Assembly (NCBI RefSeq): GCF_002355155.1
Contig: NZ_AP017369.1
Location: 1,984,001-2,048,000, forward strand
Reading direction: 5' to 3'
Source: Corynebacterium suranareeae
GTDB lineage: Bacteria > Actinomycetota > Actinomycetes > Mycobacteriales > Mycobacteriaceae
Length of the DNA stretch: 64,000 bases
Position 1 is the first letter of the stretch; each line of letters starts with the position of its first letter. The translations under genes and the position numbers were made by a program. Shown in pieces: positions 37,101-56,636 of this stretch. Below the pieces are notes generated by a model. That model ran no database searches, was not told the DNA's origin, and saw nothing but the letters and a program-made list of their open reading frames with translations.

Positions 37101-39612
37101 GTCGCTGCGCAGACCACCGGACCACGCCGTTGTCATCAACAGCAATATCAACCACATCAGCACCGTTGCGAGAAATAGTCTCGGCAATAACGGTGCCGAA
37201 TCGAGCCAACTGCGGGTCAAGATCCGGGTTGTTAATCATCTTCTGCGCAGTCTCAGGGTTAAATTTGAGCAGCTGCTGATTAATAACGTCATTATAAAAT
37301 TCATCACCGCGCAGCTCATCGCCAGTAATCGAAGTTGCTCGCAACGCCGCGATAATATCGTCATGGTTTGACCACAAAGATTTAGCACTCGGCATGTGCT
37401 TCGCCACCGCCACCGGATCAAAACGCAAACCGGTAACCGGATCAGGCTCCACCGTTCCGACATAATCGTCAAGAACAAGTGCTGCGTGCGCACGCACACG
37501 ATCCTCAACAGACGCAGCATTCATTGCTGAGGTCATCGCAGCGATCTGCTCATAATCACCATCGCGAATTGCAGCCATATAGTCGTCGCGATTGACACCA
37601 GGATTAAGCAGGTCGGTCTCTTCTCCACGCAGCATCGCCCAATAGTCCTGCTTTATCGCCATGAGCACATCGTCACCGGCAAAAGTTGGCGTGAAATCAG
37701 GATCTTCCGCATACTGTGCAGAAAGCGCAATCAGTTCTTCAACGCCAAGCTCCTCAGCCACACGTGCACGGGTGAGGGCAACACTGTCACTGAGCCATTT
37801 CAAGCCACTGTCCTCATCATCAAACCACTTTCCGGGACCAGCACCTCGATCACGTGCATCCTGAGCGATCGAAAGTCCTTCGCGCACCATAAAAGAGGAA
37901 CGATTCTTAGTGAAATACGCATCCTGTGCCTGCTCCAACGCACGTGGATGGCGTTCATTAGGTACACCAACAAGACCCTTACCATCCTGTCGTTCAACCT
38001 CCCGACCGAGAGCAAATTTCACAAGATCGACAACTTCTGCCGGACTTGGCTCATAATCGGTAGCCGGTGTCCACGTTCCATCACCATTCTCCATGCGCTC
38101 ACGAGCTCGCAGACGTTCTTCCGCTGTTTGTTCGGCGGAATACTTAATCACAGTGCCAGAATCATAGACACGACCCACCCACTGTTCATTGGCGCGAGTA
38201 TCAGTGAGGCGAATATCAATACGGGTGCCCTCAATACGCACTTTGAGCTGCCCCGGCTCACGATCTGGCTCGATCCTAAAATCCACACCCTCATCGGACA
38301 GGTAGGTCAAAATAGCTTCCGAGCGTGCAATACCCTCGTCGGACATGACTTTATTGGGGTCAATTTTTTGGCTCGCAACATCTGCTGTATCAATCAACCC
38401 AGCACGCAACCAGGATGCTGCAGCTCGATATTCTTTCGCCGTCATAAACTGCCCAATATTAGGCAGTCGCATCTGGTCATTCTCGGTGATGGTACGCCAG
38501 GCAATAGCTTCGCCATTGACCCATTGAGTCAGCGGTCGCACACCACCTTTAGTGTCATCTTCTCGGTGAGTGCCCTCATAGACGTCATTATCCTGCAGAT
38601 GAATGGTTGCTAGATCAAGATCCCTAATCATGCCAACGCTGTCCTCGGACAGCGACAGCAGCTTGGTTCCATGCACACGAACTACTTCACGGTCTGACCA
38701 GCGTGGATCATAAGGCGAAATAGGTAAACGACGACCACCCAGATCAGGACCCTCAGGCAAACCATTAGGTCCAATTGCAGCGCCGACCATCTTGTCGAAA
38801 CGATGACGCAATGCCTGATAGCCCTTTGAGCTTTCACCATCGCGAGCAATCGCATTAAACATAGGTGCTGCGTGAGGCGCTACCTCAGCAAAGGCAGCAT
38901 TGACAGAGGCGAAAAATGCCTGAGTACTCCCCCGCTGCTCTACTGGTTCGTAGGCTGCGAGATGCTCATCAACAAGCGCTCGGATCGCACGGCCATCAGA
39001 AGCACTAAGCTGCGACACCCCAGCATTAACGTGTGTACCCCAGGTACCAAACATCTCGACACCTTCATAGAAGGCGTATTCCTGAAAATAACTCTCCATC
39101 GGATCAATGTCAGGTAGCCCAGCACTTTCTGACTGACGGGCTGATTCTTGTGCAGACACCTGTTCTGCCTGCGCAGTAGCTTGGTCGCGTTCCTGGAAGA
39201 TAGCTGCTTGTTCTTGTGCACGCTGTTCAGCTTCAACCTGTGCTTGTAACTGCTGCTGCACCAGCACATCATGTGATGTCTTAATAGAGATATAAGACTT
39301 TGAGTTAAGTATGTTTTGTCGTGTCACACCAGCAAACTGTGGTCGGTGCACACCGCCATGAGCTTGAGCATCAGCAGCAAAGGCATCATCGAAAGACGCA
39401 AACATGATGGCGCCATAGGTCGCTTCATCATTAAGGTCTAAGCCTTTATTATTTGCTGCGTGCTGGTTCGCAAAGGCACGTGCCAACTGATAGATACGCG
39501 CGGCATCCTGATCGCCCAGTGGAGACTTACCCCAGTGATCTTTTTGACCCCACTCTGAGCGCGCCATCTCAAGCGATCGCTCAAAAGCGTGTCGAAATAA
39601 AGTTTTGGACAT
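33829..39612 (-). CDS. Single-chain RNA polymerase-like protein (beta plus beta-prime catalytic regions)
   Basis: 1927 codons. A beta-type part has GWNFEDGIIVS (near residue 1122) and GDKLSDFHGNKGVI (near 1155), matching RpoB's NYEDAI and GDKxxxRHGNKG with both Lys. A beta-prime part has FDGDFDGDSVG (near 1585), matching the NADFDGD Mg-binding loop with all three Asp, then SGAKGSPGKLKEY (near 1730), a bridge-helix match, and a trigger-loop-like stretch near 1770. The first ~1000 residues are less conserved. CGP3 of C. glutamicum has a comparable fused polymerase (NCgl1702, from memory), next to the CglI genes as here. ATG 39612 has the SD GGAGGA. Codons after about residue 1836 in this frame look non-coding. 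Confidence 0.8.
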   Translation of the reverse strand: MSKTLFRHAFERSLEMARSEWGQKDHWGKSPLGDQDAARIYQLARAFANQHAANNKGLDLNDEATYGAIMFASFDDAFAADAQAHGGVHRPQFAGVTRQNILNSKSYISIKTSHDVLVQQQLQAQVEAEQRAQEQAAIFQERDQATAQAEQVSAQESARQSESAGLPDIDPMESYFQEYAFYEGVEMFGTWGTHVNAGVSQLSASDGRAIRALVDEHLAAYEPVEQRGSTQAFFASVNAAFAEVAPHAAPMFNAIARDGESSKGYQALRHRFDKMVGAAIGPNGLPEGPDLGGRRLPISPYDPRWSDREVVRVHGTKLLSLSEDSVGMIRDLDLATIHLQDNDVYEGTHREDDTKGGVRPLTQWVNGEAIAWRTITENDQMRLPNIGQFMTAKEYRAAASWLRAGLIDTADVASQKIDPNKVMSDEGIARSEAILTYLSDEGVDFRIEPDREPGQLKVRIEGTRIDIRLTDTRANEQWVGRVYDSGTVIKYSAEQTAEERLRARERMENGDGTWTPATDYEPSPAEVVDLVKFALGREVERQDGKGLVGVPNERHPRALEQAQDAYFTKNRSSFMVREGLSIAQDARDRGAGPGKWFDDEDSGLKWLSDSVALTRARVAEELGVEELIALSAQYAEDPDFTPTFAGDDVLMAIKQDYWAMLRGEETDLLNPGVNRDDYMAAIRDGDYEQIAAMTSAMNAASVEDRVRAHAALVLDDYVGTVEPDPVTGLRFDPVAVAKHMPSAKSLWSNHDDIIAALRATSITGDELRGDEFYNDVINQQLLKFNPETAQKMINNPDLDPQLARFGTVIAETISRNGADVVDIAVDDNGVVRWSAQRRVGAKDSRVTDSKGQVRGERTRHVQGEIGQIFTRGEHGEIVTKFNGSENYMFAPGYTASVVPQKPSETKSLEERTKLKGYEQVMSEALAYRVREDLMFTERSRVGATTSINSAYKRLYDNRFPVDFFERSAEEGLSDEWRAALLETASLRVRYDNSIRDGANVMEDIRAQQRGFDARNDNSRDALVLTGGRNISVLDVDAGAGFFDPMMTGMAANQGSVRYLLPSAQVGADGMITPGDPADRVPVAAHPEAWAMGFDPHDRQNMTFSNIMQASAVTGGARTAMTQLHGWNFEDGIIVSADFANTHVIRDTEDKMRPLVAGDKLSDFHGNKGVIALVVDPAMSDADARAAGLESEVAFFRDNPDLEVVMSPFSAISRFNGGTARELMNDPQDVTFRNNDGSTRVQPGASGDLNFIVTHMAVDAKTNVYDEDAVREGQGRKASSQLAWVLQAQECHEIMEHFYGTNVSALSNFQEYLRVTGLDVTPYGELREGLSESNEQRNVIEMPSIYDEGGNLNDRVNRAQVREAFVEQISRAGGVMEIPFQLQLRNGAQLEESPNNPGMYQLPLLSPHLRSDEDLADGSTSRHEYTTRYMSIFDTCYKLAEEQAKIDALRQEEAEHGTLPRAAEKRLSESQKFVDQAQKKVQASFDGIANDIVASRIETKNNLFKDGFMSARQSHSATAVWTGDPRLAVDEVAMNSSMARELGVLDNGYAMVWRDPVIRDGGVRYLRVVINEDLHGVAVNPVSVKSFDGDFDGDSVGLVGNLPKKAHEEALSRLTVEANMLDLGDGKRMEDGSMFYGLTLHDSLDVQVAQHHDPAMAENMKVIVSELNRYQREYEAGEISREELLEVNRAHMDDLNEHYAQAFANRDGLVTLRFDGMENHMSSVAQCFETGAKGSPGKLKEYATYIGADPEQGFKDIGQPTAQALRSHYEGSQKATAIKVLFTGVAGKKEQEMVALCRNLGLTKEAMAASAPAQQSILQAKHDPIDALYRAETLMGPWVIFIKVTRCVEARMSKVAMNGRWSRMTTTSLFRPPRMNGYSSTWRCTPMTRAWVFLLALTRWRRSRKNSLMSRAICVCSATMSCRLRLSH
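34105..34111 (-). other. Candidate -1 ribosomal frameshift heptamer
   Basis: On the - strand the bases read G GGC CCG in the polymerase frame, fitting the X XXY YYZ slippery pattern. A one-base back-step yields ...MGP then VGDLYQGHK in the frame of 33095-34105. C in the Y positions is less slippery than A or T, so a real one-base deletion or an assembly error must also be considered. Confidence 0.45.
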
Positions 39613-44189: not shown

Positions 44190-45713
44190 CTAAACACCTT
44201 CAATGCGCCTAAAGGCTCGCGCGACTTCTTTATCAAAGTGACCTTGGGCAAGATCACGCCAATGCGGAAGCTTCACCAACATCATGCGGAATGCTCGGGT
44301 GGTCTTATATTTACCCATAGCAGACAGCGGATCATCGTCTGTACCAGATAGCGCCTCTTCCCCCTCAGCGTAGACACGCGACTGCTCCACCCCTGCCTGG
44401 GCACGCATAAGTGCAATATCTTCCTGCGACAACGCTTCGATCAGCACAGTGCCATCGACAGCATTAACCAAGCCGTTGTTAGCAGTCACCCGGAAATTCG
44501 GATCTTGAGCAAAGGCATGGACGCATTCATCATATGCGGCAGTGAGCTCATCTTCGAGTGAATCCTGCAGGATGCGGTCGAATTGATCAACCAGCATATC
44601 TCGTGACACCTTGCCTTCGGCATAACGCTTCAACTGCATGTCAGCGAGCTTATGTTCTGCATTCTCCTGATCATGGATGAACTCATCGTTGACCTCCGCT
44701 TCTTCTGCCAGAGACTTCTTTTCAATCTTCACGCCAGTAGCGACTGGAAAACCTTGTGAACTGTCTTCAAAATCATCATCAAAGTCGTCGTACTCTGATT
44801 CCATGAAGTCACGTGCGTTCATTACAGCTTCATTAGCCTCATCATAATCTGGCGCGTCATCGTACTCGTCTTTCGCAATCATCGTATCTACGATGTCCAT
44901 GATTTCTGCCGAGTACACATCCATATCCAGGCGTGCAATATCTGAGTCATCAAGCCCAGTCGCCTTTTTGTAAATATCGACGGCACGCTGAGTACGAATC
45001 GACTGCGCCATACGCTTTTCCAGCATCGCCATAAAGTCCGGTGCATTTTGATTCACATCGAATTCATTGGCGCTCGACAGTGTTGGGATAGTCTGCAACG
45101 AGTATTCGCGACCCGGTTGGATAATCTGGTTAGCAAACAGCATGAAACTCATCGGCCAAATCGTTTCATTGCGTGACCACACCGGATACTGACCTGCACG
45201 GAAAACAACGGCATTCTGCGATGGCAGAGTATTTAGGTCATTATAAGACACCACCGGCTCTTTCTCAGTTGCAGACGTATACGACACTTTGCCCTCGGTG
45301 CGCATAACTAACTGAGCCAAGTCACGGGTCACTGTCTTTGAGTTCCTGCGTACAACATGCCGTTCACCTGACCAGTCCACCAACGTCTTAATCATTGTTT
45401 CGTCTGTGGATTTCAAGAAAATAATATTGGACGTGTTGTGGGTCGGGATCATATCGTCAGTGATGTAGAGATGGTCACGGTCGGCAATGCTGATGCATTG
45501 CACGGTGTCGCGACGAGAGAACTCTACAGAGACGATTTCGTTGTTTGCTGCCGGCACATCGAGGCGTGCCCGATCTGCTGGATCGAAGTTGTCTAAGATC
45601 TCTGGCGCCGGCGCTGTGACACCAGGTAGAAACACCCTATCCCCTCGTGCCAGCATCGCTTGAAGCTCTGCCGTGGTGACGATTCTGCGCTCGCCGGCAA
45701 TTGTCTGCGTCAT
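44190..45713 (-). CDS. Coupling protein (VirD4/TraG-type), C-terminal part with IntC
   Basis: 507 aa. Residues 1-93 are a C-terminal intein half ending CISIADRDHLYITDD.IPTHN, with Cys at the class 3 block F position and the terminal His-Asn. Residue 94 is Thr, the first C-extein residue. The remaining 414 residues start TSNIIFLKSTDETMIKTLVD, matching the motif after the conserved 'GN' in VirD4/TraG ATPases, followed by an acidic C-terminal tail. Splicing with the protein from 48861-52079 would rebuild a ~1405-aa coupling protein. ATG 45713 follows GAAGGGG. On its own it lacks the Walker motifs. Confidence 0.88.
   Translation of the reverse strand: MTQTIAGERRIVTTAELQAMLARGDRVFLPGVTAPAPEILDNFDPADRARLDVPAANNEIVSVEFSRRDTVQCISIADRDHLYITDDMIPTHNTSNIIFLKSTDETMIKTLVDWSGERHVVRRNSKTVTRDLAQLVMRTEGKVSYTSATEKEPVVSYNDLNTLPSQNAVVFRAGQYPVWSRNETIWPMSFMLFANQIIQPGREYSLQTIPTLSSANEFDVNQNAPDFMAMLEKRMAQSIRTQRAVDIYKKATGLDDSDIARLDMDVYSAEIMDIVDTMIAKDEYDDAPDYDEANEAVMNARDFMESEYDDFDDDFEDSSQGFPVATGVKIEKKSLAEEAEVNDEFIHDQENAEHKLADMQLKRYAEGKVSRDMLVDQFDRILQDSLEDELTAAYDECVHAFAQDPNFRVTANNGLVNAVDGTVLIEALSQEDIALMRAQAGVEQSRVYAEGEEALSGTDDDPLSAMGKYKTTRAFRMMLVKLPHWRDLAQGHFDKEVARAFRRIEGV
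45435..45713 (-). other. C-terminal split-intein half (IntC)
   Basis: 93 residues. RRIVTTAELQAML...RVFLP resembles the linker region of phage terminase-type inteins. Block F/G end in THN before Thr+1. There is no in-cis endonuclease domain. Confidence 0.85.
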
Positions 45714-45810
45714 ATTATAAACCCCTTCAATTAAATCAAGTAATTAATATACTAACTTAATTAAGTTTATTTTTTAAGATTTACTATGCTCTACGCAAAC
45801 GCACCCAGAA

Positions 45811-45880
45811 TCACCATAAGCACCGTTTCCAGACGCAGAAACTAATTGAGCATATTGTAAAATATAGCTATGCTGACAAT
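45811..45880 (+). repeat. Direct repeat copy A (partner 46919-46988)
   Basis: 70 bases matching 46919-46988 with four mismatches. Both include a TTGTAAAATATAGCTATG block and an ATG. In the partner this is the start of the endonuclease gene; here it is followed by a 24-codon remnant. Confidence 0.88.
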
Positions 45881-45944
45881 GATTCCGCCACAACCATCTA
45901 CACAGCTGGTAGATAGAAGCGTTGAGAAGTGCTTTAAGTGTTAG
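45870..45944 (+). pseudogene. Remnant of a second endonuclease gene start
   Basis: ATG 45870 opens a 24-residue frame (MLTMIPPQPSTQLVDRSVEK, then CFKC) ending at TAG. It matches the spacing of M-x-T-M and the -QLvD- motif at the N-terminus of the 46978-48798 endonuclease (MPTMLIDTHPHLAAQLLDPD). The upstream 60 bases are nearly identical, so I take it as a decayed partial copy. Confidence 0.5.
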
Positions 45945-46639
45945 CGATTAAAGCGCCCACAAATATAACCAACAGCAAATCCAGCAAGAGCAGTTGTTGT
46001 TGCACTCTCGACAGGACGGGTGGCTATATCCTCGGCAGGACTATCGGGGCTATCAGCACTGCGCTCTTCAAGATCGCTATCATCTTTATCTTCGTCATGA
46101 AAATCAATGAGTATGCCATCAATAAAGTCATCCATGGTTGATGTGATGAAACTGGCGACTGCAATGAGCAGCAGCGCTACACACGTAATCCAAGCAGGTG
46201 TACCACTAGACGCATCAGGTGCGTTTGGAACGATGACTCCAAATGCAACACAGTAGACAACTCCAGGAATTAGTAGCCCATAAATAACAAATAGTACTGC
46301 ATAAGCAATAGCAACACTGAGCCTAGAAGAAGTCTTGCTGACGTAAAGCGCCATGCGACGTGCAATATGCGCGAACTCATGGCGACCGTGCACTACTCTA
46401 TACTTTGTTATCACCATGTAGATCACCAGGATTACTAAAGATATAATCATTGCACTGGAAGTTAGCCCTTCGGCCAATGGGAGTGGCGCAATCATCAAAG
46501 ACAGCAACAGCGATCTAATTTTGCGAACGAATAATGTGCGTAACATGCTTCCTGCAATTTGCATATTGCTGGGATCATCTTTGGTTCTATCGCGTCCACC
46601 CTTGGGGTAGTGGTCTTCAATTCTATTGGTATTAGTCAC
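45941..46639 (-). CDS. Multi-pass membrane protein inside the fractured locus
   Basis: 232 aa from GTG 46639, which has AAGGAG 11 bases upstream; the frame is open to 46720. There are four hydrophobic segments (around SLLLSLMIAPLPLAEG, AMIISLVILVIYMV, IAYAVLFVIYGLLIPGVVYC and CVALLLIAVASFIT). The hydrophilic parts are acidic (DFHDEDKDDSDLEE) and the C-terminus is GFAVGYICGRF. No family recognised. It sits with the endonuclease gene between the two coupling-protein halves, which is not explained by the fractured-gene model alone. It could be a co-inserted passenger or a transfer-apparatus membrane protein. Confidence 0.6.
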   Translation of the reverse strand: MTNTNRIEDHYPKGGRDRTKDDPSNMQIAGSMLRTLFVRKIRSLLLSLMIAPLPLAEGLTSSAMIISLVILVIYMVITKYRVVHGRHEFAHIARRMALYVSKTSSRLSVAIAYAVLFVIYGLLIPGVVYCVAFGVIVPNAPDASSGTPAWITCVALLLIAVASFITSTMDDFIDGILIDFHDEDKDDSDLEERSADSPDSPAEDIATRPVESATTTALAGFAVGYICGRFNR

Positions 46640-46918
46640 TGGACTTTTTTCTCCTTGTGTAAATGTTCCCGAAAATAGTAGATTCATCCCGCTTTTAGGA
46701 ACGGTAATTAACTCTGTCAATGAAACTGTGAAGTAAAAGCAGTTTCAATAAAAGCACATCTATACGTGCTCTCACTATCACTGTGCGCGCATCATAAAAA
46801 CGCGCAAGCACTATATAAATATCAACAGTTTCTACACAATAATCAGAAAACAATAAATAAGCTGGTCACCGCAGCAACTCACCCCACCCGGCCCCCTTTT
46901 CCCTCGCTGACACCGGAG

Positions 46919-46988
46919 TCACCATAAACACCGTTTCCAGACACAGAAACTAATTGAGCATATTGTAAAATATAGCTATGCCAACAAT
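46919..46988 (+). repeat. Direct repeat copy B (partner 45811-45880)
   Basis: Includes the presumed promoter and the first codons of the endonuclease gene. It is 66/70 identical to copy A. Together the copies flank the membrane-protein gene. Confidence 0.88.
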
Positions 46989-48798
46989 GCTTATTGATAC
47001 CCACCCACATCTTGCAGCACAACTTCTTGATCCTGATTTAGGCAAACTTCTTACCGCTGGCTCCAACAAAAAGGTCCAGTGGCAATGCCCTGAGCACGCT
47101 GATCATATCTGGACAGCCTCGGTGAATAACCGAACCAATGCGAAGAACCCGCGCTGCCCATATTGTGCCAGCACGCGAGTATTAGCTGGATTTAATGACC
47201 TTGCCACCACTCACCCACATCTCGCTGTGCAGCTGGTTGACCAAGATATTGCCCTCACCATTTCTGCTGGTTCTGGCAAAAAGCAACTGTGGCAGTGTGC
47301 AGTAAACCCCAAGCACCAGTGGTTGGCTACGCCAAATAATCGCACGAGTACTAAATCTGCGAGTTCGGGTTGTCCCTATTGCGCAAATCGAGCAGTCTTA
47401 GTCGGTGACAATGACTTTGCAACAACCCACCCCGAACTTGCAGCGCAGTTAGTAGATCAATCTGCAGCGACAACCTTTACAGCCGGCCACAACAAGCCTG
47501 TTGAGTGGATCTGTTGCAAACATGAGCCACCATTTATCTGGAAAACCTCACCAATTTTGCGTGTACGACAGAACACCCAGTGTCCTGTGTGCTCCGAACG
47601 AGCTGTGGCACCAACACTTAATGATCTTGCAACCACTCACCCTAAACTTGCCGAGCAAATCACAGACCCTCAACCAAACGGCATGAGTGCCACAACTATT
47701 ATCCCAACCATCAGTAGGGGCTCCCATACGCAATTAACATGGCAATGTTCTAAAAATCATGACCATCAGTGGATCGCTACAGTGAAAGATCGAGTTCGCG
47801 GGACAGATTGCCCCACCTGCGCAAATACAGGGACATCACGTAAAGAAGCCGAGCTTGTTGAGGTCATCCGAGCATTGCTCCCAAACACTGATGTCCAGCA
47901 AGGTGCGCTCATTAATGGGCGTACTGGTAATCGAGGTGCATCGCCATCAACCGATGTACTCATACCGTCCAAAAATCTCGCTATCGAGTTCAACGGCCTG
48001 TACTGGCACTCTGAGCTTTTCCTCAAAGATAAGCATTATCATGCGAACAAATCGGCTCTCGCAGAACAAGCCGGCGTGCAGCTTATTCATGTGTGGGAGG
48101 ACGACTGGAATCTTCGCCGCGACATTGTGATCCGCATGATCGCGCACAAGCTTCATGCAACCCATAATCTCGGCACCGTCCTACCAGCAGAAACCACTGA
48201 CCCGCGTGTGTCCACCACAGCCTTTGCCCGCACACTCACACCAACTGCAGTCTCTGGTTCACATGCTGCTGCATTCTTGAACAGGAACCATATTCAGGGT
48301 GCTGTCTCGGCCACCAAGCATCTAGCCCTGTGCGATAACAACGGTGACATTCGAGCACTACTATCGGTGCGCTCACCAAAAAACAATGCCCGCATGTATC
48401 GCAAAAAAGGCACATGGGAGATCCAGCGCTATGCGACACTCGGTAACGTCCCTGGCGGTTTTACTAGGCTGCTAAAGTTTGCCGAACACACACTCAACGA
48501 ACACGGCACAGTGCTCAAACAATGGATCTCGTTTTCTGCAGCAGATGTCTCTGACGGTGGTTTGTATCGAGCTGCCGGCTTTACTGCTGAGCAACAGCTT
48601 GCACCGGATTATCGCTATGTCGGTGGCGCAACAGGTTGGCGCCGAACACCCAAAGAAAGCTTCCAACGCAAGCGATTTAGAGACGACCCAGCGTTGCTGT
48701 GGAACGAATCTTGGACAGAGCACGAAGCAGCGCTCAACAACGAGCTGTACAGAATCTACGATGCCGGCAAAACCCGGTGGGTTAAAAATGTTGCTTGA
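46978..48798 (+). CDS. Homing endonuclease, zinc-ribbon repeats plus Vsr/EDxHD domain
   Basis: 606 aa. The N-terminal ~290 residues hold four repeats of 'ATTHP.LA.Q..D...kv.WqC...H.W.a...nR....CP.Ca', each a Cys-type zinc ribbon. Residues ~300-405 form a Vsr-like nuclease: STDVLIPSKNLAIEFNGLYW (acidic residues), then HSE, then H..K, then QLIHVWEDDW. A C-terminal domain (~410-606) follows. This matches the free-standing Vsr-type homing nucleases seen between split-intein genes ('fractured genes', Dassa and colleagues, from memory). It would cut unbroken alleles and spread the fracture. There is no ribosome site, so it may be leaderless. It runs opposite to the coupling-protein halves. Confidence 0.85.
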   Translation: MPTMLIDTHPHLAAQLLDPDLGKLLTAGSNKKVQWQCPEHADHIWTASVNNRTNAKNPRCPYCASTRVLAGFNDLATTHPHLAVQLVDQDIALTISAGSGKKQLWQCAVNPKHQWLATPNNRTSTKSASSGCPYCANRAVLVGDNDFATTHPELAAQLVDQSAATTFTAGHNKPVEWICCKHEPPFIWKTSPILRVRQNTQCPVCSERAVAPTLNDLATTHPKLAEQITDPQPNGMSATTIIPTISRGSHTQLTWQCSKNHDHQWIATVKDRVRGTDCPTCANTGTSRKEAELVEVIRALLPNTDVQQGALINGRTGNRGASPSTDVLIPSKNLAIEFNGLYWHSELFLKDKHYHANKSALAEQAGVQLIHVWEDDWNLRRDIVIRMIAHKLHATHNLGTVLPAETTDPRVSTTAFARTLTPTAVSGSHAAAFLNRNHIQGAVSATKHLALCDNNGDIRALLSVRSPKNNARMYRKKGTWEIQRYATLGNVPGGFTRLLKFAEHTLNEHGTVLKQWISFSAADVSDGGLYRAAGFTAEQQLAPDYRYVGGATGWRRTPKESFQRKRFRDDPALLWNESWTEHEAALNNELYRIYDAGKTRWVKNVA

Positions 48799-48812
48799 TT
48801 GTATACAACGAA

Positions 48813-48847
48813 AACAACCCCCTGAGGATAATCATCAGGGGGTTGTT
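48813..48847. terminator. Bidirectional terminator
   Basis: AACAACCCCCTGA (48813-48825) pairs perfectly with TCAGGGGGTTGTT (48835-48847). It lies between the convergent endonuclease and coupling-protein N-part genes. Confidence 0.85.
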
Positions 48848-48860
48848 CTGTTTCAACTCA

Positions 48861-51800
48861 TTATGCTGCGCTTGCTGCATCCTGCTCGGCAGGAACCACA
48901 ATCACTTCCCACAAATGCTCATCACACGCCTCTGTGGTTGAGCCATCTTTACGTGTCACTGTGAACACGTCCCGCTCACCTTGTGGGAACACGCCGTCAA
49001 TCTCGCTGACCGTTCCCTTTGGGGTAAGCACCTTCATGCCCTCTTCTGCTTCGCCCATCGTGACCCATCCATCGGGTGTTGCGATCTTCGCCGTCAACGG
49101 CTGCGCATTACCTTGGAGAATCTTGTCTGAGGCTTCGCCATACACCTGCGTCAATTGCTGCAGTGTCTGCAGGATCAACGTAAATTGCTGTTCCTGACCC
49201 AAACCAATCGAAAGCATGGTTTCAAACCCTGCGATTCCGTGCCCTTCCGATTGCAAATTTCCCAACTCATCCAACATGAACCGAGTCTTATAATCCGGCT
49301 TCTGGTTCTCGCGTGTCATATACGACGAGTCAAAATTCAGATCCACTAGCTGTTTGATAAGAATCAAAATCAACTTCGCATATTTCATAAGATGCGGAGG
49401 CGTTACGAAAAACACTGCCTTAGGCTTCTCCGAATACCGCACACTCAGAGCCGACACCGCATCAACCATCGCATCAACCTGCTTGATCATGTCGTGACCA
49501 GGCATATTGATCTGCTCCTGCGTGAGCTGGTTAAGATTCAGTTTCTTCGTCTTAAACTGCACATGCCCTGGAACAAAGTCACCAGCATCGTTTTTCACCA
49601 GCTCAATCAGCAGACCATTCTTAATGATCTTCTCATCGGTCACCGGATCAGTAATAAACGCACGGCCTTTAAGGTTCGTTTGGTAGCCCTTGGTGAACTT
49701 GAAGAACAACGTCTTGATCAAAGTGCCAGAAGTGCCGTTGAGAATCCGCAAACGCAAGTACGCAGTATTACTCGGGAACGAATCCTTAATATAAAACCGC
49801 GCCCAACCCTCAACCGACAACGTGTCATCATGAACAAAATTCTTACCCAACGGCTTGGTGAACTTGGCGTCACTGTAGGCATCCCATTTCACCTGTGATC
49901 CAACCAAGTTGTAGCGCTTCACATAGGGGGCTGCAAAACGAACACCCATGCGCCGTGGAAACGACAATCCGGCCAAGTCAACATTCTGACTTAGTGTGCC
50001 TGAGGTTAACGTTGAAATTGTGGGGTCTGTAAAGAAGGACATCGCTGTAATCGCGATACCGTAGACCGACGCGATCATTTTTTCAGCGCCACCCATTGCT
50101 TTCAGGGCCTTATCTGCGTTGCCTACCAAAGTACGAACACTGGACTTTGGCAGACCGTCTGTGGCACTAAAGAACAAGGTGAGCATGTCTTTTTCTTTCT
50201 CACCCTCCCACAGAAACATTTCGTTCTCTTCGGCCTCTGTCACAGCATCCTGGAACATCATGGCTGCATTTTCATCAGTCTCTAAGTTACCGAATTCACC
50301 GGCACGTGCACGTTCATTAAGCCGCTCAACGGGGTTCTTCAGCTTCTTTGCCGAAAGCTGCACAAAGAGCTGGTAGCAGTTGTAGAGCGTTACTTTGCCC
50401 CACATCTGATCAATACGTGTATCGAGGACTTTGGCATCCCAATTCTCAGCTGCAGCCTGCTTGCGCATCTCGCGCTCCTCTTCCAAATAGAAGTCGATAA
50501 GACCATAGGCTGCACGCTTGAAGGCATTGTTGGCCGCATTCGGCCATACCGGATCATCGGCACCGTCCACCGGAAAGAACACCTCTGCGATATTTTCCAC
50601 ATAGGTTGCGCACTTCATCCCGTTACCTTCGCGAGCTGCTTCGGCTGCTAATCCCAACGGGTTATAAATATCAGTTTTCAGGTTGTTAATCAGGTTAAAC
50701 TGAACAACCTGAAAACCGCGCTTAGACATCCGAACATAATTTTTCTTCAGCAACTCGCCTTTAGGGTCGTTGATACACATATTGTTCGGTCGAGTTTCCC
50801 GTGTCCACATGTCGATCATTGGCTCAATGTAGGTCTGACCCTTACCTGCACGAGTCATAGCCAGCACCAACGTGTTCACCGGAGCCTCATCGACGACATA
50901 GGCGCCAGCTGGTCGCTGCGGCTCATAATCGGGGAATTCCCAATCCTCATTGATGTGCTGCGCAACAGTATCCTGCTTACCAGTCTTGTCGCGATTACTA
51001 CCGCCAGGGTTCCATTCAATCGTTGTCGGATTAAAAAACCGTCGCAGCTCAGGAAGGTTCGGCACGTCTGACTTATCAAAAATCGAGTGACTAAATTCGT
51101 TGTCAATCATCGGCAAACTCTTAGTCACCGGCTGTCCTGCATTGTCATAGAGCACCTCACCCTTTTCGGAGACAATTTCACCGGTGTCGTTGTCGATAAT
51201 TGTCTCCTGCGCAAACTGTGTCACATCCACCTTTTTCAAACCCTTATTCGACAACATCACATGAGAAATCATGCTTGAGGGCTGGACTGGTGAGTGTGCA
51301 CCGACATCAGGGAACAAGCTCAAATCGCGCACAATCTCCTGCGGAATAGCCAAACGCGCGTCATTAGTGTGCTGGTTAATATCCGTGGTGTCCACAGCAA
51401 CATTCTGAGTCTCTAACTGACGCATCATAGCTGCACGTGACATCGCATACACACCTGTTGCAATAGCAATCACAAACATCACCCGAATAAGACTGGTGTG
51501 CCCAAATAACAGCCAGCTACCCACCGAATTATCAATAGGTTCTGGTGCATCAAAGCCATGTTCTGCGAACACACTAGCTACATAATCGGCGTACCACACT
51601 GGCTCTTTAGGCACGCTACGTGTACAGTCACCAAAATTATTGCCAAATTCATCAAGCGGTTGGTAGCACGTGGTGTGAGCACTACTGGTGCCAATTTGCT
51701 GTTCGACGGCAACGTAATAGGGCCTCACACCAAGCTCATCGAAAAGCTCTTCATCATAGGGTGAGCTAGTATTCATCATTGTCTGGACCAAAAGCCCGAT

Positions 51801-52079
51801 GCCGCCCCAGACCAACCACATCACGATCAGTACAAACACACCCAAAATTGCAGCGCCCACCTCAACCCACATTGGTGAGCGCATTTCTCCAATTTCACCA
51901 CGTGCTAATTGCTGCTCATTATGCACATCGCGGTTGCGGGCTTTATCTGTTACCCGCTGTTTTCGCAGCTGATCAAATGTGCGATCAGTCTGTTTCAGAT
52001 CTTTGGTCCCACCACCTTTAAAGGTCTTGCCACCAGACACATTGTCATAGTCGCGTTTGCTTGAACCAAATAACGCCAT
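48861..52079 (-). CDS. Coupling protein (VirD4/TraG-type), N-terminal part with IntN
   Basis: 1072 aa. Two N-terminal membrane segments (ILGVFVLIVMWLVWGGIGLL near residue 75; VMFVIAIATGVYA near 200) anchor it. The ATPase has Walker A VLAMTRAGKGQT near 410, Walker B INDPKGEL near 440, and MLDELGNLQSEG...FETMLS near 940, then ILQTLQQLTQVYGEAS...ILQGN. Intein residues AQPLTAKIATPDGWVTMGEA start at 992 and run to the stop. The protein therefore lacks the end of the RecA-like core unless spliced to 44190-45713. In conjugation these hexameric ATPases bring relaxase-bound DNA to the transfer pore. ATG 52079 was chosen over an open upstream stretch that crosses a terminator hairpin. Confidence 0.9.
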   Translation of the reverse strand: MALFGSSKRDYDNVSGGKTFKGGGTKDLKQTDRTFDQLRKQRVTDKARNRDVHNEQQLARGEIGEMRSPMWVEVGAAILGVFVLIVMWLVWGGIGLLVQTMMNTSSPYDEELFDELGVRPYYVAVEQQIGTSSAHTTCYQPLDEFGNNFGDCTRSVPKEPVWYADYVASVFAEHGFDAPEPIDNSVGSWLLFGHTSLIRVMFVIAIATGVYAMSRAAMMRQLETQNVAVDTTDINQHTNDARLAIPQEIVRDLSLFPDVGAHSPVQPSSMISHVMLSNKGLKKVDVTQFAQETIIDNDTGEIVSEKGEVLYDNAGQPVTKSLPMIDNEFSHSIFDKSDVPNLPELRRFFNPTTIEWNPGGSNRDKTGKQDTVAQHINEDWEFPDYEPQRPAGAYVVDEAPVNTLVLAMTRAGKGQTYIEPMIDMWTRETRPNNMCINDPKGELLKKNYVRMSKRGFQVVQFNLINNLKTDIYNPLGLAAEAAREGNGMKCATYVENIAEVFFPVDGADDPVWPNAANNAFKRAAYGLIDFYLEEEREMRKQAAAENWDAKVLDTRIDQMWGKVTLYNCYQLFVQLSAKKLKNPVERLNERARAGEFGNLETDENAAMMFQDAVTEAEENEMFLWEGEKEKDMLTLFFSATDGLPKSSVRTLVGNADKALKAMGGAEKMIASVYGIAITAMSFFTDPTISTLTSGTLSQNVDLAGLSFPRRMGVRFAAPYVKRYNLVGSQVKWDAYSDAKFTKPLGKNFVHDDTLSVEGWARFYIKDSFPSNTAYLRLRILNGTSGTLIKTLFFKFTKGYQTNLKGRAFITDPVTDEKIIKNGLLIELVKNDAGDFVPGHVQFKTKKLNLNQLTQEQINMPGHDMIKQVDAMVDAVSALSVRYSEKPKAVFFVTPPHLMKYAKLILILIKQLVDLNFDSSYMTRENQKPDYKTRFMLDELGNLQSEGHGIAGFETMLSIGLGQEQQFTLILQTLQQLTQVYGEASDKILQGNAQPLTAKIATPDGWVTMGEAEEGMKVLTPKGTVSEIDGVFPQGERDVFTVTRKDGSTTEACDEHLWEVIVVPAEQDAASAA
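48864..49106 (-). other. N-terminal split-intein half (IntN)
   Basis: 81 residues from Ala1 to the C-terminus. Block A-like TPDGWVTMGE; block B-like TTEACDEHLW with His and Trp two apart. Ala1 and HLW fit class 3 (direct attack by the block F Cys). Confidence 0.85.
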
Positions 52080-52182: not shown

Positions 52183-54708
52183 TTAGAAGAACACTCCACC
52201 AGCGACCAAGCCGGCAATCAGCGCCGTAACAGCACTACCGACAATCATGAAAACGTAGCTTTGATCTTTCTGCTTCAAAGACTCAACAAAGCTCATCGAG
52301 TTCGCCTCAGCCTGATCCGAACGCTCACGCTCGGCAGCCATTTCAATCTCGTGTACTTCATTGTTTGCACGAATCTGTTCTTCCATACGCTTCAACGCCG
52401 CTTCAGCATCTAGGCGTGCGGTGGTAATTTCTCGCTCAGCACGTTCTTCCGATGCAGCGACAATAGTGTCGCGACGCTTAAGCTCTGCTGCAAACTCCTT
52501 CTCCTGGCGCTCAAGTGCCTGTCGCTGGGAGGCGATCATCTTGTCAGTCTCGACGCGGATACCCTCGATGCGCTCTTCGGCTTCCTTGGTTAGCTGTGCC
52601 ACGCGATTATCCGCAGCAAGCTTCTGCTCATTCACCGATGCCAAACGCAGATCATCTTCGCGGTGATCAGCAATAAACTTGTCAAGGTCACCAATGAAAC
52701 CGTCGAAAGTTGCTCGTTGCAGTTCCGCCTGGCGCTCCACAATGGGTCGCAGCTCGTCAATAATGCGAGATTCTGCAGCGTTAGCCCGTTCACCAGCACG
52801 TGCACGACGCAGTGTGTTCATGCGTGCTGTGTAATCCTCAATAGTGCGATCCCGCAGGCTCGTCAGCTCTCGACCTACTGCCTCAAGTGATGCAGTATGC
52901 CGTGGCATATGGCGGCGGTCGTACTCCACGCGCTGTTCTGCGATCTTTGCCATGACATATTCTTCACGGTTCGCCTCATACTCCTGCTGCAATTGCTGAC
53001 GACGCTCTGACTCCACGCGCTGTTGATCACCAGCCATAACATCGCGGTCACGCTCAATGGCGCGGTAAACCTCGTAGAATTCGGAATCCTTATTATCCAG
53101 TCCAAGATCACGAGCGATCTCAAGATTAGAGCGATCGTTTAGAGCAATATACATCGCGCGTACTTCTTCATAATCACGCTGATGCTGGTCAAGCAGCTGA
53201 CCATTAAATACCGTCACCAATGTACGAAGCTGATCACCTAACCACGGTGTAGTCTCCTGGAATTGCGGCATCGCTACCTGGAACGGTGCCCTAGTCAGAG
53301 CGTTATTGAAGTTTGCTTCATCGACATACAGCCCCAAGTCGTCATTAACATAACGTTTGGTGACAGCATCGCCCACTTGATCAGCGTCAAAGCTTCGGTC
53401 ATCAGCTGCGTGCACCTGCGCCAATGCTGCCTGAGAATCCTGAACCGGATTGTAAGCCAGTGCTTGTGCAAGATCTTCTCGCAGAGCATTCAGCTCTGAA
53501 CCAGTCTTTGCTTGCACGGACTCAGACACACCACGAATCAGCGCCTGGATCTGCTCATCAGACATACCGGCTACTGGTGCTGGTGCTACACCAGATGCAC
53601 CAAAATCTGGCTCATCGTCACCGCCGAAAGGATCGTCTTCTACTACATCACCAAAAGGTGCCTCGTCATCGTCACCAAAAGGATCTGCATCGGCTACCGT
53701 TTCTGCAAGCGCCTCATCCGCGGACTCATCCTCAGGCTCGGTAGCCTCTACATCGTCAATACCAAAACCATCACTGAAATCCGGCGTATCCACCTGTTCT
53801 GCTAGTTCGGCATCATCAAGGCTCGCAATAACCACTGTGTCATGGGACTCCTGTGCATCAGCATCCACTACGTCTGCGCTGTGAAGCACCGGCTGTGGCG
53901 CTACATGATGCTTGCCCTGCAACTTGGTGAACACGTGCACAATATTGTCAATGATCTCTGCACTGCTCGGATAGGAGCCCGCATTAAGCTTTTCGCGAAT
54001 GAGATCATCAGTGATAACTCCCGCTGCATTGACACCCTCAAGACCATAGGGCACGTCACCATCTTCGTCATCAATATCTACCTCCGAGGTCTCGTTCAAT
54101 ACCTCCAAGAACGTCGCGATAACCTCGAAATCAACCACGTCTTCGAGGTCAGTCGCACCACTAAGTACGTCACCAACCTCTGCAAAAATGTCACCGCGTG
54201 CCGAAGCGCTGTTTTTCGCTGGCACCTTGAACACCACCAGCTCACCCGTATCCGGTTCAATTGCAGCGACACCGTAGTGCCAGCGCGCCTTGTTGCGCAG
54301 CAGATCAAATTCATCCATACGATCAAAAGAGGCTTCATCTGGAATGACACCGAGTACATCATTATCGAGCAGTTCAGGCGTAACCACAGAATGAATATCA
54401 TCGTTGATCACCAGATTGATGATCGTGCCCTTATCCTCATTGCTCTTTTCTTTGGCATTGAGCCCACCGAATTGTGGATCGTGAGTTGGTAGCAGCATGA
54501 CTACCCAACCGGTCTCACCTGGCAAGGCGAATGCGTCATTGCGACGCATAACCTCGACTGCAGCACCTGGTTCGGTTTCCTGAATGACCGAAGCGAGTCG
54601 TTCTTCTTTGCGCAATGGCTTTAGTGCCGCATCGCCAGAAACAGCCCCCTCCCCCACTCCATGAGAGTTTTTCGCTTTGGTAAAGCGATTTTTCAATGAA
54701 TCGAGCAT
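52183..54708 (-). CDS. Tail-anchored coiled-coil protein, 841 aa
   Basis: The N-terminal ~250 residues have several alternating strand-like segments. Residues ~300-400 are acidic and low-complexity (FGDDDEAPFGDVVEDDPFGG). Residues ~550-810 form long charged coiled coils (e.g. EEERIEGIRVETDKM-like, ERAEREITTARLDAEAALKR). The last ~25 residues are one membrane span (FMIVGSAVTALIAGLVAGGV, then FF). The layout suggests a cytoplasmic scaffold anchored by its C-terminus. It lies between the AAA+ ATPase and the coupling protein in the transfer module, so a structural role in transfer is likely by context only. ATG follows CAGGGGTT. Confidence 0.6.
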   Translation of the reverse strand: MLDSLKNRFTKAKNSHGVGEGAVSGDAALKPLRKEERLASVIQETEPGAAVEVMRRNDAFALPGETGWVVMLLPTHDPQFGGLNAKEKSNEDKGTIINLVINDDIHSVVTPELLDNDVLGVIPDEASFDRMDEFDLLRNKARWHYGVAAIEPDTGELVVFKVPAKNSASARGDIFAEVGDVLSGATDLEDVVDFEVIATFLEVLNETSEVDIDDEDGDVPYGLEGVNAAGVITDDLIREKLNAGSYPSSAEIIDNIVHVFTKLQGKHHVAPQPVLHSADVVDADAQESHDTVVIASLDDAELAEQVDTPDFSDGFGIDDVEATEPEDESADEALAETVADADPFGDDDEAPFGDVVEDDPFGGDDEPDFGASGVAPAPVAGMSDEQIQALIRGVSESVQAKTGSELNALREDLAQALAYNPVQDSQAALAQVHAADDRSFDADQVGDAVTKRYVNDDLGLYVDEANFNNALTRAPFQVAMPQFQETTPWLGDQLRTLVTVFNGQLLDQHQRDYEEVRAMYIALNDRSNLEIARDLGLDNKDSEFYEVYRAIERDRDVMAGDQQRVESERRQQLQQEYEANREEYVMAKIAEQRVEYDRRHMPRHTASLEAVGRELTSLRDRTIEDYTARMNTLRRARAGERANAAESRIIDELRPIVERQAELQRATFDGFIGDLDKFIADHREDDLRLASVNEQKLAADNRVAQLTKEAEERIEGIRVETDKMIASQRQALERQEKEFAAELKRRDTIVAASEERAEREITTARLDAEAALKRMEEQIRANNEVHEIEMAAERERSDQAEANSMSFVESLKQKDQSYVFMIVGSAVTALIAGLVAGGVFF

Positions 54709-54848: not shown

Positions 54849-56636
54849 TTACCCCTCTACACGCTTAATCACCACACGTGCTGTAGACACACGGTTGGTC
54901 TTATTACGCATCTGACCATCGACATCAACGTAAATGTCACGCACCTCGGGGTAGGTATTAATAAAGGTTGCGACCTCGGTGACTACTTCCCGCTGCAAAG
55001 ATCGCACCGCACCACGGGCACCACCGGACTCCGCACTTTCCTCCACCTGATCCACCAACAAGAACTCCATCACCTTGTGCGAACAGTGCATAACCACACC
55101 ATGTCGTGCGTATACCTCACTAGCCACATCTTTGAGCTTTTTGGTGATAATCCTGTCCTGCGTCGTTTCCGATAGTGGTTGAAACGGCACAATCTCATCC
55201 ACACGCCCAAGAAGTTCTGGTGGAAAGCCTTTATTTTTGATTGACGTATGAATGTTTTTAATAAAGTCTTTAATTGCTCGTCCATCACCTGTGTCATCAG
55301 TGGCGTAATTCGAAATAGTCTCGAAAATCTCAGAACCAGCGTTGGTTGTCATAACAATATAGGTATTAAGAAAACTCACCTCGCGGTTGTAATCATCAGA
55401 TAATCGACCATCATCAAGTACTTGCAGCAAAAGCCGTGCAATAGCTCGGTCAGCCTTTTCTACTTCATCGAGCAGAACAATGGCATTACCCTGGTCTGCC
55501 ACGCGGCGCGTGAGTTCAGACCTAAACAGATCTAGACTTGATTCCAAGGCAAATTCCGACATATCAAATCGAATAAGGCGCCCGGTATCATCACCAAACA
55601 GTACTCGTGCCAACTGCTTAACTAGCTCTGTTTTACCCACACCAGTGGGGCCAGTGAACAAAAAATTCGACAGTGGCCTGGACTTATCATGAAGATCGGC
55701 CACCACCAGCTGCAAACGACGTGCTACCACAGTCGTAGCGAGACTTTGCGCCATCACTTTCTCATCAAGCTTGTCTTTAATGCTCGTACCATCGACCTTG
55801 AAGGCAATATCCACACCAATAGCATCGTGGAGCACATCGCCCAGCAGATCCATATCCATCGGCTTGCCAGAGAGTCGATGCCAACCCACCATTGCATCAA
55901 GGACGCGAATTGATTTACGAGGCTGGACAGAACTCGGCATAAAACGCTCAGTGGTGGAGTAAATCTGCTCAAAAACGTGATCGTCATAAAACTGATCGCT
56001 TACACCATAACGATCCGCCATACCACGCAAAATCGCCACAGTGGTCTTCTGATCGGTCGGTGTTAGTCGAATTTCCTGCAAGCGCTCCGTCAATGCTTGG
56101 TTCGGCCTGATGTGCTCATGAAATTCTTCCAACGTGGTCGCAGCGATAACACGCACACCAAGCACGCCTGACATCGCCAAAATCGGCTTAATTGCCTCTA
56201 CCGCAGCAGTAGACAGCTGCACAATTTGGTGAAACTCGTCAATAAAGAGCACCAGCTCATGACCCTCGTGCTTGCGATAAGCAATAGCGTCTTCAAACAC
56301 ACCTTTAATGCGTGCTGCCATCTGCGCCGGCGTGCTCAAATCCGCAACCATTTTCGCTACATCGACCTCGATATAGTTACGTTCTGGATCTTTCACCAGT
56401 GCTTGCTGCACCAACGTGGTTTTACCCGAACCCGCAGGACCAACGAGCATGACATTCGAGATCTCTGGTCGCATCAGCGCAGCCATAATCTTATTGACTT
56501 CTTCTTCGCGTCCAACAATCTCACGCACCGGTACGGCAACAGGTGCTGCATACGCGCTCAAATAGGGGTACTTGTCTTCATCAATCTCCCGATTAATCGA
56601 CACACCTACCGACACACCTACCATACTCTGAGTCAT
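54849..56636 (-). CDS. ClpB/ClpA-like double AAA+ ATPase (transfer module copy)
   Basis: 595 aa. D1: Walker A GPAGSGKTTLV near residue 63 and Walker B LVLFIDEFHQIV near 130. D2: GPTGVGKTELVKQLA near 328, DMSEFALESSLD, Walker B AIVLLDEVEKAD near 390, and sensor 1 IVMTTNAGSE near 430. A Clp-type C-domain (LLGRVDEIVPFQPL) follows. It has no ClpN domain and no long middle domain. It shares the two-module build with the 20517-22421 protein, but the sequences are clearly different. In the transfer module it might energise secretion or unfold relaxase; this is inference. ATG 56636 follows GGTGGGGAC. Confidence 0.85.
   Translation of the reverse strand: MTQSMVGVSVGVSINREIDEDKYPYLSAYAAPVAVPVREIVGREEEVNKIMAALMRPEISNVMLVGPAGSGKTTLVQQALVKDPERNYIEVDVAKMVADLSTPAQMAARIKGVFEDAIAYRKHEGHELVLFIDEFHQIVQLSTAAVEAIKPILAMSGVLGVRVIAATTLEEFHEHIRPNQALTERLQEIRLTPTDQKTTVAILRGMADRYGVSDQFYDDHVFEQIYSTTERFMPSSVQPRKSIRVLDAMVGWHRLSGKPMDMDLLGDVLHDAIGVDIAFKVDGTSIKDKLDEKVMAQSLATTVVARRLQLVVADLHDKSRPLSNFLFTGPTGVGKTELVKQLARVLFGDDTGRLIRFDMSEFALESSLDLFRSELTRRVADQGNAIVLLDEVEKADRAIARLLLQVLDDGRLSDDYNREVSFLNTYIVMTTNAGSEIFETISNYATDDTGDGRAIKDFIKNIHTSIKNKGFPPELLGRVDEIVPFQPLSETTQDRIITKKLKDVASEVYARHGVVMHCSHKVMEFLLVDQVEESAESGGARGAVRSLQREVVTEVATFINTYPEVRDIYVDVDGQMRNKTNRVSTARVVIKRVEG

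Follow-up and report, generated by a model that had tools for sequence, protein, structure and literature searches.

Two genes with putative class 3 split-intein halves are predicted to encode one conjugative coupling protein in Corynebacterium suranareeae

How could a conjugation system obtain its coupling protein from a gene that has been broken in two? The question is raised by a locus of Corynebacterium suranareeae that lies in a window of 64,000 nucleotides (the whole stretch of DNA analyzed; contig NZ_AP017369.1, positions 1,984,001 to 2,048,000 of the forward strand; coordinates below are those of the window). An earlier annotation made from the DNA letters alone, here called the sequence-only reading, had described a coupling-protein gene that is split and rejoined by an intein. 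With a probability of about 0.88, we read the coupling gene as two genes that carry the halves of a class 3 intein and are predicted to trans-splice into a VirD4/TraG-type ATPase of 1405 residues; the intein would descend from a cis intein with a LAGLIDADG domain, and homing would have passed to a nuclease encoded in the gap between the halves. The open reading frames (ORFs) and their parts, with lengths in amino acids (aa), are as follows.

N-half ORF: 52079 (ATG) to 48861 (stop), minus strand, 1072 aa, with an alternative TTG start at 52217
N-extein: 49107..52079, minus strand, residues 1-991, ending in DKILQGN (from the ORF and its PF02534 and PF12696 matches)
N-terminal intein half (IntN): 48864..49106, minus strand, 81 aa, residues 992-1072 of the N-half (from phmmer matches to solved inteins and from cis inteins)
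C-half ORF: 45713 to 44190, minus strand, 507 aa
C-terminal intein half (IntC): 45435..45713, minus strand, 93 aa, residues 1-93 of the C-half, ending in PTHN, with its own start codon
C-extein: 44193..45434, minus strand, 414 aa, residues 94-507 of the C-half, starting with TSNIIFLKSTDE (TSNIIF)

The two genes lying 3.1 kb apart were found as the sequence-only reading had described them. Both ORFs are present, and the 3147 bp between them hold two genes, one of 606 aa (plus strand) and one of 259 aa (minus strand); the latter (45941-46720) and the class of the intein are new relative to that reading. The N-half scores over cut-off for PF02534 and PF12696 (Pfam). The PF12696 match of the N-half stops at profile position 59, and the C-half covers positions 56-125 weakly and below cut-off (E 0.0069). 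VirD4/TraG-type membership is thus indicated by T4SS-DNA_transf and TraG-D_C over cut-off in the N-half, with PF12696 below cut-off in the C-half.

The junction was located by alignment with four intact plasmid-encoded relatives: the 1412-aa proteins of Rhodococcus pGS01 and Gordonia pGKT2, and proteins of 1350 aa and 1286 aa from a Streptomyces and a Staphylococcus capitis plasmid, respectively. In all four, similarity to the N-half ends at QGN, or at SSN in Staphylococcus, and similarity to the C-half begins with the residue that follows, so that ILQGN-TSNI is crossed without a missing or doubled residue. The VirD4 core is therefore contiguous across the junction, which falls after ILQGN as proposed earlier. 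Residues 10-991 of the N-extein are 60% identical to the Rhodococcus pGS01 protein, and the C-extein shares 39% identity with the intact proteins from Rhodococcus, Gordonia and Streptomyces. The arrangement is that of a naturally split intein gene: the halves are in separate genes, each has one extein, and the exteins are contiguous in intact relatives. The extein lengths (991 + 414) give a predicted joined protein of 1405 aa, in agreement with the approximate size given in the sequence-only reading.

Both intein halves resemble known inteins. In phmmer searches of the PDB, IntN matched the gp41-1 variant 6riz (E 4.6e-5) and the class 3 DnaB intein 6bs8 (E 0.0053); 6rix and 6riy were weak matches (E 0.18 each), and 6qaz was likewise among the matches. 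Cis inteins at the same site in four other genome loci (L006, L007, L008 and L048) are 51-54% identical to IntN and 53-73% identical to IntC. An RNA intron in place of an intein was rejected for the window, because no Rfam family reached its gathering score window-wide and the two ORFs encode intein halves. As a separate observation, intein-like stretches in phage genes for SNF2/DarB-like helicases (for example, those of PhiPA3 and N1M2) share 53-56% identity with IntN.

By definition, class 3 inteins are without the first Cys or Ser and have a Trp-Cys-Thr (WCT) motif, with Trp in block B, Cys in block F and Thr before the penultimate His (PMC7664689, PMC7891396). Judged by its residues, the coupling-gene intein bears this signature. 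Ala1 stands directly after Asn991 in place of Cys or Ser, and Ala was found at intein position 1 in 14 of 15 N-side matches (P0014 was not resolved by the pattern). The motif consists of Trp in DEHLW, Cys73 in VQC and Thr91 in PTHN. The Trp aligns with EHLW of 6riz, a variant that was given a WCT motif, and the Cys and Thr align with VRC and PTHN of 6bs8, at a weak E-value of 0.69. The intein ends with His92-Asn93, and the +1 nucleophile is Thr94.

Following the class 3 pathway in the order given in PMC7891396, IntN and IntC would fold jointly into one HINT domain, and Cys73 of IntC would attack the Asn991-Ala1 bond to form the branched thioester typical of class 3. The N-extein would then pass to Thr94, the residue with which the C-extein starts, and cyclization of Asn93 would free the intein and leave the exteins joined as ...ILQGN-TSNI.... 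We infer that trans-splicing is needed before conjugation, as the sequence-only reading also suggested; purifying selection and the recurrence of the split form, both described below, support this.

The split form recurs among relatives of the C-half, of which the best 120 of 374 proteins were listed. Pattern sorting gave 107 split, 10 cis and 3 intein-free proteins, with P0096, which is split but has a long stretch upstream, counted as split. Inspection removed P0134 and P0156 (pieces of cis inteins) and P0144 (cut short), leaving 104 of the 120 as split-looking C-halves, every one of which starts with Met. On contigs of at least 10 kb, the numbers were 51 split, 6 cis and 3 free among 60. 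Cys and Thr are both kept in 96 of 107 split-type C-halves, a count that includes the window and the three rows later dropped and excludes P0096; 9 were not resolved by the pattern, one has D and one V. At the N-half end, 15 of 53 matches are coupling proteins with an intein at this site, 12 of them split and 3 cis. The 12 split N-halves stop 5-19 residues past the HLW block or its equivalent. Three pairs of N- and C-halves are on contigs of identical size (895,628, 29,603 and 23,044 bp). A sixteenth coupling protein, P0048, has a cis LAGLIDADG intein elsewhere, right after the GK of the Walker A region.

The gap between the halves contains the following features.

Free-standing homing endonuclease (HEN): 46978..48798, plus strand, 606 aa
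Hydrophobic protein (ORF): 45941..46720, minus strand, 259 aa, TTG start, with an ATG at 46687
80-bp direct repeat, copy 1: 45805..45884, no strand, flanking the 259-aa gene
80-bp direct repeat, copy 2 (91%): 46913..46992, no strand, overlapping the first HEN codons
Hairpin: 48813..48847, minus strand, 13-bp perfect stem and 9-nt loop followed by T's, directly after the N-half stop

The opposite-strand gene between the halves is thus present, and the EDxHD/Vsr label given to it earlier was upheld at the level of its family. It has four DUF4379 treble-clef repeats, an EDxHD/Vsr-type domain at about residues 286-400 and a GNAT/Mom-like fold at about 410-604. Alignments were made of 30 rows (A2, the window and 29 of the 120), 31 rows (A3, the window and 30 of the 120) and 10 rows (A4). 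The HEN family profile A3 matches I-Bth0305I (3r3p) with E 1.1e-4 over 49 profile positions, at rank six after five DUF4379 ribosomal proteins, and Pfam finds MTES_1575 in 24 and Vsr in 1 of the 31 HEN relatives. Taken alone, the window HEN stays below every nuclease family cut-off in Pfam (MTES_1575, E 0.026) and has no nuclease match by phmmer against the PDB. Its AlphaFold model has a mean predicted local distance difference test score (pLDDT) of 90.2 and a predicted template modeling score of 0.56; among the best 50 PDB matches in Foldseek there were DUF4379 and GNAT/Mom structures and no nuclease. The C-terminal fold resembles that of Mom, a DNA-modification protein of phage Mu (8bv8, E 1.7e-6).

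HEN homologues, listed as the best 120 of 5860, are linked to the split halves. The exact longest-contig size of a listed homologue is matched by 15 of the 120 C-half clusters, all of them split, in 16 C-HEN pairs, and by 4 of the 15 N-half clusters. Shifted sizes gave a mean of 0.46 and a maximum of 3 C-HEN pairs.

The hairpin was found by reading the sequence, since its loop exceeds the limit of the scanner. It is likely a terminator common to the N-half and the convergent HEN gene, and the sister species has a similar hairpin after its N-half stop. Because of this hairpin and of a sequence like a ribosome-binding site (GAAGGGG) ahead of the C-half start codon, the N-half and C-half are likely separate transcription units; promoter-like sites were no more frequent than in shuffles. 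An active coupling protein would therefore arise only when both are expressed. The 259-aa protein matched zero Pfam families at E 1 and has zero matches in loci L002-L054. An 80% identical copy is found in the sister species (L058), where this arrangement also occurs. The gene with its flanking repeats looks like a cargo insertion or a duplication in the gap.

The sister genome (G307), from a second species of the genus, has the same gene pair, with the C-half, HEN and intein parts intact; the nuclease gene between the halves, part of the fractured-gene arrangement noted earlier, is accordingly intact in two species. Ratios of nonsynonymous to synonymous substitution (dN/dS; scripted Nei-Gojobori counting, with residues 967-991 left out of the exteins) were 0.029-0.078 for the exteins, 0.020 for IntN, of which 80 of 81 residues are identical between the two species, and 0.073 for HEN. 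By these values, exteins, IntN and HEN are under purifying selection between the two species. For IntC the ratio was 0.17 (bootstrap 0.04-0.40), and its last 30 residues are without amino-acid change. Based on the ratios and on these unchanged residues, IntN and the core of IntC are at least as constrained as the exteins.

Where could the split form have come from? In other actinobacteria, cis inteins with LAGLIDADG occupy the same site, as seen in the four loci mentioned above (of 45 genome loci), and LAGLIDADG was also found in the cis proteins P0008, P0011, P0015 and P0123. A model of one cis intein resembles PI-SceI, gp41-1 and class 3 DnaB inteins, at a whole-model pLDDT of 62. Residues about 11-30 of IntC correspond to the linker motif found ahead of the LAGLIDADG domain in the cis relatives. 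This motif (T..EL...G...LP) lies 256-259 residues ahead of THN in cis proteins (matched in 5 of 10; a sixth row called cis by the pattern, P0096, is split). In split-type C-halves it lies a median of 79 residues ahead of THN (88 of 107), near the protein start. Because the linker persists there, the split C-half looks like a cis intein that is without its LAGLIDADG domain and whose chain was opened upstream of the linker. Most likely, then, the ancestor would be a cis class 3 intein that sat at this site and contained a LAGLIDADG domain. This domain would have been lost, with the chain broken upstream of the linker that precedes it, and homing would have passed to the free-standing EDxHD/Vsr-type nuclease. 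By cutting coupling genes without the insert, the nuclease would cause the whole gap (IntN, nuclease gene and IntC) to be copied in.

In a tree of 105 split, 17 cis and 17 free rows, the three types were intermixed, and the split state needs at least 11 changes, 7 of them forced by well-supported branches. This was a quick tree with long branches that included some intein-free genome loci; P0134, P0144 and P0156 were dropped after a first tree had flagged one of them. A single origin of the split form was rejected, in that one split clade had p 2e-56.

Several observations weigh against our reading. IntC alone reaches a solved relative, the class 3 DnaB intein 6bs8, weakly (E 0.69). The NCBIfam intein profile TIGR01443 gave no call, with 13.2 bits for a cut-off of 15.6, and TIGR01445 had zero matches genome-wide. 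The intein blocks expected by the sequence-only reading were thus recognized by solved structures and same-site relatives and not by these two generic profiles, which are too insensitive for the coupling-gene intein. The split N-halves P0012 and P0013 are without the Trp (Ser and Phe, respectively), and the N-terminal part of IntC (63 residues) is under loose constraint (dN/dS 0.29, bootstrap 0.10-0.97). As to recurrence, 56 of the 107 split-type rows are on contigs below 10 kb, where a cut gene can mimic a split one, and the starts of 10 rows were inspected individually; most split relatives are metagenome proteins, known here from their protein sequence. The 45 genome loci, found by C-half alignment, comprise no split and four cis inteins at this site, and the split form at this site is absent from the 8 matching plasmid records. 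The N-half occurs in 1 of 251 family-sample genomes, the window's own, and the C-half in 2 of 242 genomes of the genus, one of them the window's. Equal contig size means co-location and does not give the order of HEN relative to the halves, and the pair of halves on 895,628 bp is without a HEN among the 120 listed homologues. Finally, since split rows do not form one clade, several origins, losses or transfers are needed.

Three other explanations have to be considered. The halves might never splice, the intein parts serving for docking only and the coupling protein being a non-covalent ATPase of two subunits. The general intein profiles below cut-off would fit this. Docking alone, however, would need no Cys73, Thr91 or Asn93, whereas the intein has the class 3 residues, 96 of 107 split-type relatives retain both Cys and Thr, and the last 30 residues of IntC and 80 of the 81 of IntN are unchanged between species; we regard this explanation as very unlikely. 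Still less probable is a decayed leftover, that is, an intein-bearing coupling gene that was broken by an insertion and is out of use. The element does sit in a chromosome-sized contig, and the sister N-half carries two further insertions, but one of these matches a group II intron and would splice out. Purifying selection on the exteins, IntN and HEN, the start codon and ribosome-binding-site-like sequence of the C-half, and the linker motif in 88 of 107 split-type rows all argue against decay.

Trans-splicing might also be real and the gap nuclease an unrelated passenger without a role in the spread of the intein, which we consider improbable, if less so than the other two. HEN relatives are indeed found in phages (409 phage records, 986 places), often many per genome. 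Against a passenger stands the co-location with a HEN homologue, which holds for 15 of the 120 C-halves and 4 of the 15 N-halves, where chance would give about 0.5 C-HEN pairs; HEN is also the genome's sole ORF with a DUF4379 match. A fractured gene with an EDxHD HEN is, moreover, a pattern reportedly described by Dassa and colleagues in 2009. We retain trans-splicing of a class 3 intein, with homing by the gap nuclease, as the preferred reading.

The sister species adds further interruptions to the same gene.

Sister N-half locus: L058 7688-14632, interrupted twice more, with pieces 1-414, 415-967 and 967-1072

Insert 2, at codon 967, is a group II intron according to Rfam and carries a 405-aa ORF, in which no reverse transcriptase family was matched. 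Insert 1 (1.66 kb) lies in the Walker A motif, at codon 414/415, and carries a 402-aa DUF7487 ORF; Rfam gave no class for it or for its short relative in L018. Outside its ORF, insert 1 resembles two other inserts: its 5' 300 nt share 77% identity with one that Virgibacillus (L043) has at the same codon, and a part of 112 nt shares 79% with one in L018. The ORFs of both sister inserts are 54-55% identical to L043 ORFs. The inserts at codon 414/415 in the sister, L043 and L018 have a common GTTCAACGA(T/G)TATC motif, which we take to be group I-like; Rfam does not recognize insert 1. The A3 nuclease profile matched none of 16 other ORFs, mostly intron ORFs.

Coupling genes broken at several sites were also seen in L018, L043, L044, L051, L052 and L053, which belong to Firmicutes, a metagenome-assembled genome labeled Muribaculaceae and three viral-collection contigs. 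Group II introns (RF02004, RF00029) were identified in L043, L044, L051, L052 and L053. L044 additionally has a group I intron, and L018 had no Rfam match. Between the window N-half and the sister locus, third-position divergence is 0-15% per 60 codons over codons 415-894, from the insert 1 site onward, versus 8-32% before that site and 37% at codons 895-954. Codons 415-894 are possibly a co-conversion tract.

By a narrow balance, we favor a wider view in which several self-splicing elements would use the coupling gene as a common target: split class 3 inteins (at QGN-TSN), group II introns (at codon 967) and the RNA-like Walker A insert, each with a likely nuclease gene. In the sister species, two RNA splices and one protein trans-splice would be needed to unite the four gene pieces of the ATPase, so that transfer would hang on three self-splicing reactions. 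Many origins or rounds of spread would lie behind the split form, and split class 3 inteins would be common. An intron and an intein in one gene are known elsewhere, in the ribonucleotide reductase of phage SPbeta; we know of no description of an intron and a split intein together in a conjugation gene.

How does the locus compare with known systems? Dassa et al. (2009) are said to have described fractured genes whose halves end in split-intein parts and enclose a free-standing EDxHD nuclease, reportedly in phage-type replication and metabolic genes and not in conjugation. The window shares the two halves with split-intein ends and the EDxHD nuclease between them, and would differ from those cases in its conjugation host, in a nuclease that is on the opposite strand, DUF4379-bearing and Hef-like, and in a second gap gene. 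The cis class 3 inteins of the four genome loci and of P0008, P0011 and P0015 have the same insertion point, in one uninterrupted ORF with an internal LAGLIDADG, unlike the split window intein. The plasmid coupling proteins of pGS01, pGKT2 and Streptomyces NBC_01454 are the same protein in one gene without an intein at this site, in a similar neighborhood (MobL relaxase, AAA+ ATPase upstream, large protein downstream).

A close parallel is AceL NrdHF, a class 3 intein that is split by nature; its host gene is fractured, and a nuclease gene separates the two parts. The 2020 report on it calls split class 3 inteins very rare, with one example (PMC7891396). The two systems are alike in these features. 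AceL NrdHF, as given there, has a ribonucleotide reductase host on a phage-like contig, a GIY-YIG nuclease, halves of 98 and 48 aa and Met at the W position, whereas the window has a conjugation ATPase, an EDxHD/Vsr-type nuclease, 81 and 93 aa, a canonical WCT motif and a large family.

The Hef-like HENs of Campylobacter and Xanthomonas phages have treble-clef repeats followed by an EDxHD/Vsr-type nuclease, as in the window HEN. The best phage matches are 24-30% identical to it across 79-99% of its length, and some phage relatives are annotated as Hef-like homing endonuclease. In PMC12350094, EDxHD/Vsr nucleases with CapR/DUF4379-like repeats form a large outgroup that resides in group II introns of phages, and most of its relatives occupy group I introns. 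Such Hef-like or CapR-DUF4379 homing endonuclease genes are thus free in phages or inside group I/II introns, whereas the window HEN is tied to a split intein. The nucleases appear alike by domain types, and one common family beyond that is not claimed. A search of one library of open papers for inteins in a coupling protein or type IV secretion system found no such split gene; the arrangement of a fractured gene with a split intein is known, and its host gene here would be new.

The genes around the locus are consistent with a conjugation cluster.

841-aa gene: 52183..54708, minus strand, immediately upstream of the coupling gene; by position, it corresponds to a gene in pGS01 and pGKT2
AAA+ ATPase: 54849..56636, minus strand (Pfam); an AAA family ATPase is at the same place in pGS01 and pGKT2
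MobL relaxase: 60549..63293, minus strand (PF18555, E 1.5e-57)
1927-aa protein: 33829..39612, minus strand, 44.7% identical over 86% to genes after the coupling gene in pGS01 and pGKT2

For the 1927-aa protein, E-values of 3e-4 and 0.0015 were obtained with RNA polymerase Rpb2/Rpb1 domains, weak matches that stay below cut-off. The locus DNA gave zero megablast matches to plasmids. Inside the AAA ATPase gene that neighbors the coupling gene in a Streptomyces plasmid (L004), IntN-like matches were found at 3491-3712 and 5726-5890 (32% and 40%), and this ATPase has 1431 aa versus 588 in pGKT2. More inteins in the same conjugation cluster are therefore likely.

Since cis, split and intein-free versions are found at one site, and the linker is visible in most split forms, the route from a cis to a split intein is traceable in this family. 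About a hundred split class 3 inteins, mostly with canonical catalytic residues, may be a source of cysteine-catalyzed trans-splicing pairs. If our reading is true, protein trans-splicing would lie in the path of bacterial conjugation, and the DNA-recruiting motor would exist only once two separately encoded halves meet.

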